Assembly (NCBI GenBank): GCA_002842095.1
Contig: PHCB01000005.1
Span: 62,001-126,000 of the forward strand
Length of the DNA stretch: 64,000 nt
DNA from: a candidate division BRC1 bacterium HGW-BRC1-1
GTDB lineage: Bacteria > Sumerlaeota > Sumerlaeia > Sumerlaeales > Sumerlaeaceae
Direction: 5' to 3'
Positions 20,113-62,158 of this stretch are shown piece by piece. The position numbers were made by a program, and so were the translations under genes. A model generated the notes under the pieces. That model worked only from the letters and a program-made list of their open reading frames with translations. It ran no database searches and was not told the DNA's origin. Numbering within the stretch: position 1 is the stretch's first letter; each line of letters opens with the position of its first letter.

Positions 20113-22851
20113 TCAGACCAGTGTCGCCCGCATAATCCTCTCAATGGCGTACATGGCATCGCTGTCGGTGTCCTGACAATGAGCGTACATGCGTGAGCCT
20201 TCGATGGTCTTGGGCACCACCGTGGTGGCCACTTCCTGCTCGTTGGCCTTCACATAGTTCAGCTTCACGTCCAGTTCGTAATCCCGTGCAAAGGCGATGA
20301 GTTTCAGAATATCGTCTCGGTCCTCCGCCGGATTCGTCCCGCGATAATTATACTTCGAAGGCCCGCGCCCGCTCATGCTGCGCGTCACCATGCGCGAGAG
20401 CTGCGATTTATATTTTTCGGCGATCTCGTCGGTGGTGGTCTTTAAAGCCGCACGAAAACGCTTTTCATAATTCCGCGTCGTCATATCCGCATACTGCCTC
20501 ACGCGGGCGAAGCTGGAACTTTCCGGACGAAGTTTCTGTGCCAGGGCGGCGGACTTTCCCTCCGAGATATCTGCGTCCAGTTCCTCTTCCACATAGCGAA
20601 CGAACCGCACAGCGCCCATGACATCGGCCAGTTCCTGGGCGGTCAACGTGAGATGAAACCTGTCTTCTGCCGAACGATGAACAGCGCCAGTTTCCACATG
20701 CGGCATCAACCCAAGGTGGCGCATCAGGGCGGCCAGCTTCTTCATATCCACATCGGGAGCGAGAACGATCAGATGATCCTCAACCACCTCCCGGATGAAG
20801 GGCTGAAAACGCGGGGTCGCTGCGATCTGGCGGAGCATAACCGGGTCATCCGCGGTGATGGTTCCACCGGACGCCGACAAGTACACTTCGCCATGCTTGT
20901 TCGAACACTCCTGGATCAGGTGCGTCACGGTCTCGGGCACGTCGACCCGGCTCAGTTCGCGTAGAAACGAAAGAATCTCGTCGCCCTGCAAACCACGATC
21001 CATGGCCCCCCGCACACTCTCGCGGGTGATTTCGAATGTCGTCATCACGTCCACATTGCGAATGCTGCAGAAGCCCGCCAGCCGGAAGACATGCACCGCC
21101 GCAAGATCAGGAGGTGCCATGATTTCAAGATTCGGCTGAACGATAAGCCAGGCCGCATCATACGAAAGCGGGATGGCCGGCAGATCTTCTTCGGCAACCA
21201 AACGGGGATCGAGGAAATGATCGGCAAAAAGAGCCGTCCCATATTGGGTGGGTTGAAACCAGAGATCATCACCTTCCGTGGCTTGCGACTGTCTCCATTT
21301 GGAGCGCCCCTTACGCTGGGGTTCCTCGATGCCGTTCACTATCTTGAGCGGATCACCCGCGTAAGCACCGATGCTCAGGATGCCCAGCCAGTTAAGGCTT
21401 TCACCCATCACGTTCAATAGTGTCTCACGGAACATGCGCTTGGCCCGCGAATCGGCCAACGAAGGAAACTGCGTATTGATGAGGGGCACCAACGTTTCAT
21501 AAAACGCATTGAAGCTGAGCCAGTTCTCCCCGGGAATGCTTGCGATTCCACGAAGAACGGCCCGGCGCAATTCCAGCAAATCCACAGGACTGTCGAGTTT
21601 CGCCTCGCTGAAAAGAACGCTCCCCTCCAGTCCCTCCTCCTGCCAGTCGGCGCTGCCCAACCACCAGGTGTACATCTCCCAGTAGCAATCTCGCGGTTTC
21701 TCCAGCCACTCCCTCAGCGTTTCATCCACGCGCCAGACGTTTCCGACCGGTATCAGGAATTTCCGTCCAACCAAAAATGCGGCGAGAAACATGGCATAAC
21801 GCAGAGGCTTGGCACCACCCAGCAAAGGCAGAACGCGTTTGAGATCGTTCTTATTAATCCCACCGCCGGTCAACCGCTTCAGAGATTGTGCATCCATGAA
21901 ACTTGCCATAATTGCCAGGTCTCGGAGCAAGGTCCGGGAGTTATCGGTCACATGGGGGGGAACCATGTCCACACGCCCCAAGCCGGTTCCCTCCAGTCCA
22001 CTCAGGCATCGATCATCCACCGCAAAATTATTTGTGACCATCTGGTAAATGTCACGGGGGACCATCAGCAGGTTGGTATACTTGTTGTTCCCCTCGGCCA
22101 CAGAGAACACCAGGCCCGAGTCGCTGATGAGTGAGTTCAACTGCTCCGTCTTGGCATGGTCGAAACGACGGGGACTGCCCGGTTCCAACAGGTCACGATA
22201 GAGACAAAAACCTTTGCGTTCTATCAGCGAATCGAAGAACCGGCGTTCATCGTCCGTCAGATTCTCGATATGCTCGCGCAGGTTTGAAGGCACCAACAAC
22301 CATTCCCTCAATTGGAAGGGCGAAACCGATTTGCGTGATTTCTTCCCCCCGAGGTCGGGGATTTCCGCAGCAATATCCACCAATTGGGAACTCGTTAATC
22401 CACGAAGAAGGTTCCCCAGATAACCCTTCCAATGAGCCGGAAGCTCGATGAATCGAAGATAGGATTCGGGTAACCCGATTATGTTTTCTGCCGCCCCATC
22501 CCCCCCCCGCTCCGTAAAAACAAACCCTTTGCCTTCCATCGTCTGCAACATGCGCGCCATGGCTTCTTCGTCATCTGCAAAGCAGCGCTTACGGACTTCC
22601 CCTCCTCGCAACTCGCATCCGTGAATGGCCAGGAAATAAACCAGATCGCGTTCGTCCGACTCCAGTTTCTCGAAGGCGTTTCGGAAATACTGCGCCGTCT
22701 GAAGGCGGGGGTATAGGAACTCAACCAAAGTGGCTTGCCGCCGCGTTTCTCCGATGGCAGCGTCATCCGGCAGCTTCAGTCCCCAGAAATCCACAATGAC
22801 TGCGAGTTGAGCCTCTGAAAGCGCACGCAGAGCTGTTTTCAATTTAATCAT
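20113..22851 (-). CDS. Helicase_C_3-domain protein with WYL-like C-terminus, partner of XPB
   Basis: 912 residues with no Walker motifs. Residues about 565-720 match the Helicase_C_3 (XPB/Ssl2 N-terminal-like) pattern: WLIVQPNLEIMAPPDL, TFEITRESVRGAMDRGL, EILSFLRELSRVDVPETV and LIVLAPDVDMKKL. The last 68 residues (from about 845) look WYL-like: helix, Y-rich strand, TVVPKTIEGSRMYAHCQ, then AIERIMRA. The N-terminal 500 residues are helical, with several winged-helix-like segments. Bacterial XPB helicases are often encoded beside such proteins; here the XPB gene ends 42 bases upstream. The role is probably a DNA-binding partner in repair or genome maintenance. A run of nine G on the coding strand (plus-strand C at 22500-22508) lies near codon 115. 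Confidence 0.78.
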   Translation of the reverse strand: MIKLKTALRALSEAQLAVIVDFWGLKLPDDAAIGETRRQATLVEFLYPRLQTAQYFRNAFEKLESDERDLVYFLAIHGCELRGGEVRKRCFADDEEAMARMLQTMEGKGFVFTERGGDGAAENIIGLPESYLRFIELPAHWKGYLGNLLRGLTSSQLVDIAAEIPDLGGKKSRKSVSPFQLREWLLVPSNLREHIENLTDDERRFFDSLIERKGFCLYRDLLEPGSPRRFDHAKTEQLNSLISDSGLVFSVAEGNNKYTNLLMVPRDIYQMVTNNFAVDDRCLSGLEGTGLGRVDMVPPHVTDNSRTLLRDLAIMASFMDAQSLKRLTGGGINKNDLKRVLPLLGGAKPLRYAMFLAAFLVGRKFLIPVGNVWRVDETLREWLEKPRDCYWEMYTWWLGSADWQEEGLEGSVLFSEAKLDSPVDLLELRRAVLRGIASIPGENWLSFNAFYETLVPLINTQFPSLADSRAKRMFRETLLNVMGESLNWLGILSIGAYAGDPLKIVNGIEEPQRKGRSKWRQSQATEGDDLWFQPTQYGTALFADHFLDPRLVAEEDLPAIPLSYDAAWLIVQPNLEIMAPPDLAAVHVFRLAGFCSIRNVDVMTTFEITRESVRGAMDRGLQGDEILSFLRELSRVDVPETVTHLIQECSNKHGEVYLSASGGTITADDPVMLRQIAATPRFQPFIREVVEDHLIVLAPDVDMKKLAALMRHLGLMPHVETGAVHRSAEDRFHLTLTAQELADVMGAVRFVRYVEEELDADISEGKSAALAQKLRPESSSFARVRQYADMTTRNYEKRFRAALKTTTDEIAEKYKSQLSRMVTRSMSGRGPSKYNYRGTNPAEDRDDILKLIAFARDYELDVKLNYVKANEQEVATTVVPKTIEGSRMYAHCQDTDSDAMYAIERIMRATLV

Positions 22852-22893: not shown

Positions 22894-24672
22894 TCATGCT
22901 TCGTCAGGAACCTCTTCCACTGGCACCTCGGCCAGCGATTCCACGATGCCATCCTCGGCCGAATCAAAACTCAAATCATCCACCGTAAAATCCAATCCGC
23001 TCAGCACCCGGATGCGGTAGCGATAGCCTTGCTCCGTCAGGAACAGAGACCGCCGTTTGGCGCATTCCTGATCCTTTGTATCTTTCGTAACCACGGAATA
23101 GAAATAGGCGAAATTGCCACCCGTTTTGGGGCGCAACACCCGGCCGAGACGCTGTGTCTCCTCCTGGCGGCTTCGAAACGTTCCCGAGATCTGAATGGCC
23201 ACATTGGCGTCCGGCAGATCGACCGCAAAGTTCGCCACTTTTGAAACTATCAGAACCTTGTTTTTACCGGTTTTGAAATCGTTATAAAGCACCTCGCGCT
23301 CGGAATTGGGCGTTTCTCCTGTAATGATCGGCGCTCCAGTGAGTTCACGAATCGCTTCCAGTTGGTCGAGATATTGCCCGATAATCAGAACGTTGTCTTC
23401 CTTGTGTTTCTTCAGAAGGCACTCGACAACCGGCAACTTGGATGGGTTTTCCATGGACAACCGGTACTTGTTGCGAAGCTCCGCCACGGCATACTCCAGG
23501 CGCTTGTCCTCTGCCATGGGAACGCGAATCTCCATGCACCGTGCCTGGGCGATCCAACCCTGTGCTTCAAGTTCCTTCCAGGGCTTGTCCAACCGTTTCG
23601 GCCCGATGAGCGAAAAGACATCATCCTCTTTGCCGTCTTCGCGCACCAGCGTAGCGGTCAGCCCCAAACGCCGCCGGGCTTGAATCTCTGTGGTAGCGCG
23701 GAAAACCGGGGCCGGCAGCAAGTGCACCTCATCGTAAATCATGAGACCCCAGTTGTATTTCTGAAACAAATCCATGTGCAAAAACTCATCGTTGCGAGAC
23801 TTCTTATAGGTCAGGATCTGGTACGTGGTCACCGTGACCGGCTTTACGTCCTTCACCTCGCCGCTGTACTCGCCAATCTGATCTTCGGTCAGTGTGGTCT
23901 TGTCCGCAATCTCACGCTTCCATTGGCGCAAGGCCGTCAAGTTGGTGGTGAGGATAAGCGTATGCTGCCCCACCATGGACATAGCCGCTATACCGATAAC
24001 GGTTTTCCCCGCCCCGCAGGGAAGCACCAGAACTCCACTGCCCCCCGTCCTGGCACCGTTGGCGTAAAAAACCTCCGCTGCGTCGCGTTGATATTCTCTT
24101 AGCGAAAACGGCAAACCGGAGACAGTCTCTTCGCGCATGGTTACTTCGAGGGGGTCCCCCTGCACATACCCGGCGAGATCCTCCACGGGGAAGCCAATTT
24201 TAATAAGCGCTTGCTTGATGCGCCCGCGAGTACCCGGCAAAATTAAAATCTGGTTCTCACCCCTACGGACACTCAAGAACGGCCTAACTTGGGGTGACGC
24301 CAGGATCTCCTCCAATGCGATGGGATCATCCGACTGCAAAATATGCTCGTCCGTCTCGTCCAACCGCAGCAGCTTCACCTTGCCGTAGCGCGCCATCTGC
24401 TCACGGATTTCTGTGAAAACATTCGGCGGCACATCATACTTCGTCAGCCGACGAAGCCCCTCAATGATCCCCTCCACTTCCACACCCGCGGCAGCGGCGT
24501 TCCACAACGAGAGGGGTGTCACCCCATAGGTATGCAGATACTCGGGACTCTTGTGGAGCTCTGCAAACTGGTTGAGAAAATCTCGCGCTGTATCAAAATG
24601 AGGCCCCATCGTTTCCAAAAGGATAGTCATGTCGGACTGCACAATCAGGGGGTTTTCGGGCTTAAAGTTCAT
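22894..24672 (-). CDS. XPB-type DNA repair helicase
   Basis: 592 residues. The N-terminal domain (PLIVQSDMTILLET near residues 8-21) resembles the XPB damage-recognition region. Superfamily 2 motifs follow: Q-like FSLREYQRDAAE near 189-200, Walker A LPCGAGKT at 217-224, DEVH box at 314-317, LTATLVREDGK with the XPB-specific RED motif at 344-346, and motif VI RQEETQRLGRVLRP near 505. Bacterial XPB proteins are 3'-5' DNA helicases linked to nucleotide excision repair or transcription. The neighbouring Helicase_C_3 protein gene is immediately downstream. No Bax1-like nuclease gene is adjacent. Confidence 0.93.
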   Translation of the reverse strand: MNFKPENPLIVQSDMTILLETMGPHFDTARDFLNQFAELHKSPEYLHTYGVTPLSLWNAAAAGVEVEGIIEGLRRLTKYDVPPNVFTEIREQMARYGKVKLLRLDETDEHILQSDDPIALEEILASPQVRPFLSVRRGENQILILPGTRGRIKQALIKIGFPVEDLAGYVQGDPLEVTMREETVSGLPFSLREYQRDAAEVFYANGARTGGSGVLVLPCGAGKTVIGIAAMSMVGQHTLILTTNLTALRQWKREIADKTTLTEDQIGEYSGEVKDVKPVTVTTYQILTYKKSRNDEFLHMDLFQKYNWGLMIYDEVHLLPAPVFRATTEIQARRRLGLTATLVREDGKEDDVFSLIGPKRLDKPWKELEAQGWIAQARCMEIRVPMAEDKRLEYAVAELRNKYRLSMENPSKLPVVECLLKKHKEDNVLIIGQYLDQLEAIRELTGAPIITGETPNSEREVLYNDFKTGKNKVLIVSKVANFAVDLPDANVAIQISGTFRSRQEETQRLGRVLRPKTGGNFAYFYSVVTKDTKDQECAKRRSLFLTEQGYRYRIRVLSGLDFTVDDLSFDSAEDGIVESLAEVPVEEVPDEA

Positions 24673-24803
24673 TCAGGGGAGTCACCAGGGTTCGCTATTG
24701 TCATCTTGAAAGTCTTTATTTTCAGCATTCTACCACAGAATGAGAAGGCCTGTTGGGGCTGCTCCGCACCTATACCATAATGCTACACATAAACCAAACC
24801 AAT

Positions 24804-24832
24804 TTTATCTCGAAATTAACAACCTGTGTCAA
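24804..24832 (-). promoter_or_regulatory. Candidate sigma70-type promoter for the XPB operon
   Basis: Reading on the minus strand, TTGACA (24832-24827, a perfect -35) is followed after 17 bases by GATAAA (24809-24804, 4 of 6 matches to TATAAT). It points toward the XPB start at 24672. The -35 box lies inside the left arm of the inverted-repeat element at 24826-24889. Confidence 0.45.
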
Positions 24833-24889
24833 GGGGGGAAACGTAAATTCTGCAAAAATATATGACATTTCCCCGCAGAACCTTGACAC
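24826..24889. repeat. Three abutting inverted repeats with pseudoknot topology
   Basis: The outer arms GTGTCAAGG (24826-24834) and CCTTGACAC (24881-24889) are perfect 9-bp complements. Next to the left arm lies GGGGAAA (24835-24841), complementary to TTTCCCC (24868-24874). TTCTGC (24848-24853) is complementary to GCAGAA (24875-24880). The second and third pairs interleave, as in an H-type pseudoknot, and TTTCCCC, GCAGAA and CCTTGACAC follow one another without a spacer. The element may be a structured RNA, an operator overlapping the promoter, or a short mobile-element relic. Confidence 0.6.
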
Positions 24890-24916
24890 GCCAGAAACAG
24901 AAAACCCCCCCCGGAG

Positions 24917-25858
24917 TTATCCATCCCCATCGGGCGATTTTTCTTCCATCACCGACATGGGCTTCAACCCCAAGACCACATCCATCGGTTGCGTGGGCCA
25001 GATGCATTCTGGATACTCGCGGATGGTCTCCTCGAAGATTCGCAAGTAATCCTCCATCAATCTCTTCGAAACATCCGCGCCGGCGTCCCGTGGAATGTAT
25101 TCAGGCTTGGAAACCTTAACTAAAAATTTGCCATCTCGATACATCCCCAACGCAAAACAGATGGGCGCGCCAGCCAACCGCGCTATTTCCGGTGCTCCCT
25201 GACGAACCGGATAGGTGCCACCCAGCATGGGCATCCCCATTAGTCCACCACCCTGGTTACCATCCACCGCCACTCCCAGAACCTTGCCGGCCTGCAGCAT
25301 ACGTACCGCCCCACGAACCGAGCCTCCCAAACCGGACTTGGTTCCCACGAAAACCGGATCCTTATGTATGAACAACATCCGCCGCTCACGCTCCGATTCG
25401 ACCCCGGCCACGCCGACCTTGCGCATCACTTCAACCTCATATCCCAAATGATCCAGTTGAACGAAGCTGAGCATGTTCGAACCAAAATGCATCGAGGTAA
25501 TTAAAACTCCGGTGCCCCCATCCAGAATTTTAATCACTTCATCCAACCCTTCAAACACCACGGTTCCGTCGTGCCATGCGGGAGAATCGGGATGTTGAAA
25601 AACGTAATTGGCGGTCAAAAGAAGAAATTGTGTACGGTAGAATTTCCGAGTCAGAGCCTTGGGATCCATCTCCAGACCAAGCCGACCCAACAAAATCCGA
25701 AAACGCTTCTCAACCTCATGGCGTCGCCCCCGACGGCTCCAATACAAGAACTCCCCCACCGCCGCGCTCATAAGCGGCAACCAGCGGTGAGGCAACCGGC
25801 GCGCAAGTTCCGCAAGCCTCAGAACATTTGCACCGCGCGGATTGACGATCATTTTCAT
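24917..25858 (-). CDS. LpxL/HtrB-like LPLAT acyltransferase with altered catalytic motif
   Basis: 313 residues from the ATG at 25858, which has GGAG eight bases upstream; the longer frame to 25897 is less likely. The fold markers of lipid A/lysophospholipid acyltransferases are present: helical N-terminus, GGTGVLITSMHFGSN at 114-128, then LGVAVDGNQGG and GAPEIARLAGAPICFA. The family catalytic motif is HX4(D/E). Here His124 is present but the acidic position 129 is Met, so activity is doubtful or different. A membrane-associated role in outer-leaflet or glycolipid acylation is inferred. It lies upstream of the XPB gene, separated by 244 bases holding a structured element. Confidence 0.8.
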   Translation of the reverse strand: MKMIVNPRGANVLRLAELARRLPHRWLPLMSAAVGEFLYWSRRGRRHEVEKRFRILLGRLGLEMDPKALTRKFYRTQFLLLTANYVFQHPDSPAWHDGTVVFEGLDEVIKILDGGTGVLITSMHFGSNMLSFVQLDHLGYEVEVMRKVGVAGVESERERRMLFIHKDPVFVGTKSGLGGSVRGAVRMLQAGKVLGVAVDGNQGGGLMGMPMLGGTYPVRQGAPEIARLAGAPICFALGMYRDGKFLVKVSKPEYIPRDAGADVSKRLMEDYLRIFEETIREYPECIWPTQPMDVVLGLKPMSVMEEKSPDGDG

Positions 25859-26054
25859 GCATAACACTCCACAAATGCCCGTGCCAAATAGTTGCACTGG
25901 CGGTCAGGATCAATTAGTCGAACTAAAATTTTATGTATGGGCTATCGTGCCGATGCAAGACGGAAAAGTGCAGAGATTCTGCAGCTGAACCATACCGTTC
26001 CGGCACCGCTTTCCGCTTGCCGCCGGCACACCATTGCGCCACCCCTGCATTATC

Positions 26055-31679: not shown

Positions 31680-32117
31680 GGGGGCGTAACGGCTTCGACG
31701 GTGAACGCTGGAGGAGAGGCTGCAAGCCGGGGCGCATACTAACCCCGTCAAAAAGTGTGCAACGGCAATTAACTGCCAACGATAATCTCGCACTCGCTGC
31801 CTAACTAAACCTTAGCGCAGCGATGTCCGCCGTCGGGTCGCCTGAATCCGACGGGCCGGGCATCGACCCCCTCAGGCTGGCTTAGGTGCGCGGCCCGCGC
31901 ACCCGAGTGAGATCATGGGCTGGTTTGCAAGGCGCGCCCGTCGGACGGCGTTCCACCGCGAATGAGATACGATTGGCCGGACCCCTCATCCCCCAAACCC
32001 GGGTAACCGGGCGCAAGGTTTAAGGACGAAAGCCCCTCTTAAATAGCCCGACTACGCTTGTAGACGCCGCTCAAACAGGTTCTTCGGACGCGGGTTCGAC
32101 TCCCGCCGCCTCCACCA
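31680..32117 (+). ncRNA. ssrA: tmRNA (SsrA)
   Basis: The 5' end GGGGGCGTAACGGCTTCGAC and the 3' end with a T-arm-like GGGTTCGACTCCC followed by CGCCTCCACCA are classic. The acceptor stem pairs 31680-31686 with 32107-32113 and includes the G3-U70 wobble required for alanine charging; CCA is encoded. The tag reading frame starts at GCC 31775 and ends at the TAA 31802-31804, giving ANDNLALAA. At about 438 nt the gene is longer than the usual 350-400, with GC-rich hairpin or pseudoknot segments between 31815 and 32060. It works with SmpB (16818-17285) to release stalled ribosomes and tag the peptide for proteolysis. Confidence 0.95.
31775..31804 (+). other. tmRNA tag peptide frame (ANDNLALAA)
   Basis: Nine codons from GCC to GCC followed by TAA encode A-N-D-N-L-A-L-A-A. 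The LALAA end fits recognition by ClpXP-type proteases; the common version is YALAA. Confidence 0.9.
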
Positions 32118-62007: not shown

Positions 62008-62057
62008 TTTTAAACGTCCACCTGTACGTTGTACTGGTTTGGTGAGGCATGCGGATT

Positions 62058-62112
62058 GGTTTCAGCAGTTTGTACACAACAGATTTGTCCTTGTGGACAA
62101 ACCTCTGAAACC
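62058..62112. repeat. 55-bp imperfect palindrome with 22-nt arms
   Basis: The arm 62058-62079 pairs with 62091-62112 at 19 of 22 positions: 8 pairs, a 2x2 mismatch, 6 pairs, a 1x1 mismatch, then 5 pairs around an 11-nt centre. The outer arms are GGTTTCAG and CTGAAACC. The right arm holds TGTGGACAA, the complement of TTGTCCACA, one base from the DnaA box TTATCCACA. It lies in the divergent gap between the CHC2-TPR gene and a secreted-protein gene. It may be an operator, a DnaA-type site or a bidirectional hairpin. Confidence 0.6.
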
Positions 62113-62158
62113 GGAATCGCAACGCCTCGCAACACTCATTTTATCAAGCGATCGGACC

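Follow-up and report, generated by a model that had tools for sequence, protein, structure and literature searches.

The locus and the arrangement of its inverted repeats

The window (the whole stretch of DNA that was analyzed, 64 kb in length) carries an XPB DNA repair helicase gene, which is followed on the same strand by a gene with a Helicase_C_3 domain and preceded by a lipid A biosynthesis acyltransferase-like gene. The order of XPB and the Helicase_C_3/Tfb2-like gene is near-universal among orthologous loci, and the acyltransferase-XPB order is conserved in four of six same-family relatives. Judging from the best named matches to XPB (71-74% identity), the host is a member of the Candidatus Sumerlaeota lineage. 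Elsewhere, the window contains a tmRNA gene (31680-32117, plus strand, Rfam RF00023).

A 64-base element of three inverted-repeat pairs (24826-24889) lies in the gap from the acyltransferase stop to the XPB start, where the original prediction had placed it, and on the coding strand it begins 27 nt past the stop codon of the acyltransferase gene. The features of the locus are as follows.

20113-22851, minus strand: gene downstream of XPB, Helicase_C_3 domain and weak Tfb2-like match
22894-24672, minus strand: XPB DNA repair helicase gene (NCBIfam NF045503, E 8.5e-253)
24802-24807, minus strand: probable -10 box TAAAAT, 19 nt past the -35 box, best promoter match in the gap
24826-24834, no strand assigned: arm A, GTGTCAAGG, pairs with A'
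24827-24832, minus strand: -35 box TTGACA of the candidate XPB promoter, from orthologue conservation; makes up most of arm A
24835-24841, no strand assigned: arm B, GGGGAAA, pairs with B'
24848-24853, no strand assigned: arm C, TTCTGC, pairs with C'
24868-24874, no strand assigned: arm B', TTTCCCC
24875-24880, no strand assigned: arm C', GCAGAA
24881-24889, no strand assigned: arm A', CCTTGACAC, no counterpart in six relatives
24917-25897, minus strand: lipid A biosynthesis acyltransferase-like gene upstream of XPB (PF03279, E 9e-4, below the curated cut-off)

The predicted layout was confirmed exactly: three perfect pairs of 9, 7 and 6 bp fall within 64 bases in the arm order A B C B' C' A', with B and C interlocked, and the contacts A/B, B'/C' and C'/A' are all without a gap. 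The B/B' pairing reaches 10 bp if one mismatch is allowed.

We estimated how often such an arrangement arises by chance from 104 Mb of simulated, locally composition-matched sequence, counting every triple that packs 22 bp or more into 64 nt or less. Interlocked triples appeared at a rate of 0.0049 per 64 kb and 0.29 per 3.77-Mb genome, and three-helix triples of any of three topologies at 0.011 per 64 kb and about 0.65 per 3.77-Mb genome. The perfect 9/7/6 interlocked triple is the only one in the window, and no second triple of at least 22 bp turned up in 547 kb of actual genomic sequence (from this genome and the XPB loci of relatives), the runner-up measuring 21 bp. The claim that the order exceeds chance expectation thus holds for the 64-kb window (0.0049 or 0.011 expected) and fails for the genome, where about 0.65 such triples are expected under a criterion that was set post hoc, after the pattern was seen.

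On the gene strand, the element is predicted to fold into a bulged A+B hairpin with a 6-nt bulge (-25.3 kcal/mol, z = -4.95). When the stems were scored alone, A+B reached -19.6 kcal/mol vs -16.7 kcal/mol for A+C. Stability alone is not exceptional, because the 415 kb used for calibration (the window and other stretches of its genome) contain four further loci that fold as stably at the same or a lower G+C (at most 0.46). A stable low-G+C hairpin at 62053-62116 of the window, GGTTTCAG...CTGAAACC with an inner GTTTGT/ACAAAC pair, matches the stability of the element.

The candidate XPB promoter in the left arm

That the left outer arm contains the -35 box of a candidate XPB promoter, as originally predicted, was borne out by comparison with orthologues. 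The sequence TTGACA-N19-TAAAAT sits 160 nt upstream of the XPB ATG, and this site is the single match to TTGAC[AT]-N17-19-NANAAT in 415 kb of this genome. All six same-family orthologues carry TTGAC[AT]-N18-NANAAT at a distance of 78-187 nt upstream of XPB; more widely, TTGAC[AT] is present in 19 of 30 XPB orthologue upstream regions, the window included, vs 3.3 expected. Genes of this genome are preceded by TTGACA about twice as often as expected (12 vs 6.3), whereas its reverse complement TGTCAA shows no such excess (6 vs 5.8 expected), which fits the expectation for a -35 element. The TTGACA of the right arm points the opposite way, and by inspection no -10 box accompanies it on the plus strand.

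The -35 box is the sole part of the element kept by relatives: an inverted partner of at least 6 bp upstream of it is absent in six of six same-family relatives. Judged from its sequence, the site resembles a sigma-70-type promoter (TTGACA, 16-19 nt, TATAAT), with a perfect -35 hexamer, five of six matches at the -10 box, a position upstream of a gene and conservation in orthologues. The -35/-10 spacing is 18 in the six family relatives, whereas in the window it is 19, or 17 with the weaker alternative -10 box GATAAA; promoters were compared by position, not by multiple alignment. Many XPB orthologues (L019-L047) also carry a GATT/GATA motif at a near-fixed distance after the -10 box (about 12 nt past its start), near the expected transcription start. 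This motif is absent in the window; it may represent a conserved feature of the XPB promoter, either at the start site or as an operator.

We consider it probable, at roughly two chances in three, that the element is ordinary DNA from the upstream part of the XPB promoter, and that its inverted repeat is lineage-specific and most likely arose by chance. Arm A would supply the conserved -35 box to a minus-strand promoter of the sigma-70 type, from which XPB and its downstream partner gene would be transcribed. The remaining arms, and hence the three-helix pattern, would be specific to the lineage of this genome, and the repeats probably have no function of their own. Since a -35 box in the left arm puts the predicted XPB start downstream of the element, the element would lie outside the XPB leader and would presumably be transcribed solely through read-through from the acyltransferase gene. 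A striking pattern of inverted repeats can thus be built around an ordinary conserved promoter; as a by-product, the analysis yields a candidate for a promoter that bacterial XPB genes share across a phylum that has been little studied.

Three points count against this reading. Only about 0.01 such elements are expected per 64-kb window, and the fold has a z of about -4.9. The spacing of 19 (or 17) departs from the 18 of the relatives. Finally, the comparison would overlook a function limited to the genus, because the nearest genomes are only 66-75% identical in the XPB protein; a search of genome contigs with XPB found no closer relative.

Conservation and alternative readings

Homologues of the element were sought in several ways. 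DNA similarity searches of this genome and its relatives returned the element itself or chance matches of 14-31 nt. A covariance model of the A+B hairpin, a check that had been proposed at the outset, found the element alone in its own genome and, among 45 other genomes, one marginal match in genome G035 (E = 0.39, 17.7 bits), which is chance level for 46 genomes. Apart from that match, no homologue was detected upstream of XPB or elsewhere in the 45 relatives, and no stem pairs conserved through compensatory changes. Further, an exact scan of viral contigs and a blastn search of plasmids gave no match to the element, and Rfam gave none inside it; a sub-threshold Rfam match to ACA64 (snoRNA) lies on the other strand at 24893-24985, outside the element.

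The alternative that survives best, though we regard it as rather unlikely, is a lineage-specific A+B hairpin in the 3'-terminal part of the acyltransferase mRNA, where it would stabilize the transcript end or cut read-through into the XPB promoter. Both its location just behind the stop codon of the acyltransferase gene, read on the coding strand, and the stability of the A+B fold are consistent with such a role, but the stem is not followed by a U-tract. Comparable folds upstream of the -35 box reach z = -1.4 to +0.9 in five of six relatives, which is weak; the sixth, L020, has a moderate fold of a different kind (z = -2.8). An intrinsic terminator, with a GC-rich stem followed by a T run, was also considered and rejected, as the terminator scan showed no terminator-like site at the element. 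The one minus-strand match of the scan (24918-24903) is outside the element and equals the shuffle mean of 1.0.

Somewhat less probable is a DNA operator, in which a regulator would bind two inverted GTGTCAAGG half-sites whose centres are 55 bp apart (about five helical turns), and would loop or block the XPB -35 box. Arms A and A' are indeed perfect 9-bp inverted copies, and one half-site covers the -35 box. However, the partner site is missing upstream of XPB in all six family relatives that have the gene, and no second pair of half-sites was found in this genome or in seven other family genomes, so that half-site pairs do not recur at several genes or at orthologues, as they would in a regulon.

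We give little credence to a genus-specific element, acting as DNA or as read-through RNA, whose hairpin would sequester or flag the XPB -35 box and thereby couple acyltransferase transcription to XPB expression.

The structured RNA with an H-type pseudoknot that was initially proposed, with B and C interlocked inside stem A, is very improbable. Its arm order allows interlocking, as in the B C B' C' order of known H-type pseudoknots, and all three pairs are perfect. Unlike such pseudoknots, the element has a nested predicted fold, the A+B hairpin, which is favored over A+C when the stems are scored alone; one loop of the pseudoknot would measure 0 nt; and neither conservation nor covariation was seen, with no Rfam match in the element and no homologue in the 45 genomes searched. 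The site is also upstream of the predicted XPB start.

The least probable reading, a remnant of a small mobile element or repeat, can be dismissed almost entirely: the 9-bp terminal inverted repeats flanking a short AT-rich core in an intergenic gap do recall MITEs and REP-like palindromic repeats, but the copy count suggested for this idea gave a single copy in this genome by DNA, covariance-model and pattern searches, and the repeated palindromes of the genome, one with 20 exact copies, do not include the element.

Two dispersed repeats were observed in the course of these searches. The perfect palindromic hairpin GGGGGCATTCCTGCCCCC has 20 copies in this genome (0 for a control pattern), none of them in the window; copies such as those at C28:4433-4450 and C2:141794-141811 make up a repeated hairpin family. 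The motif TTTGCGNTCTTNGCG has 15 copies in this genome (control 0), for example at C34:17435-17449 and C1:273579-273602, and at locus L067 it forms one arm of a long AT-rich hairpin.
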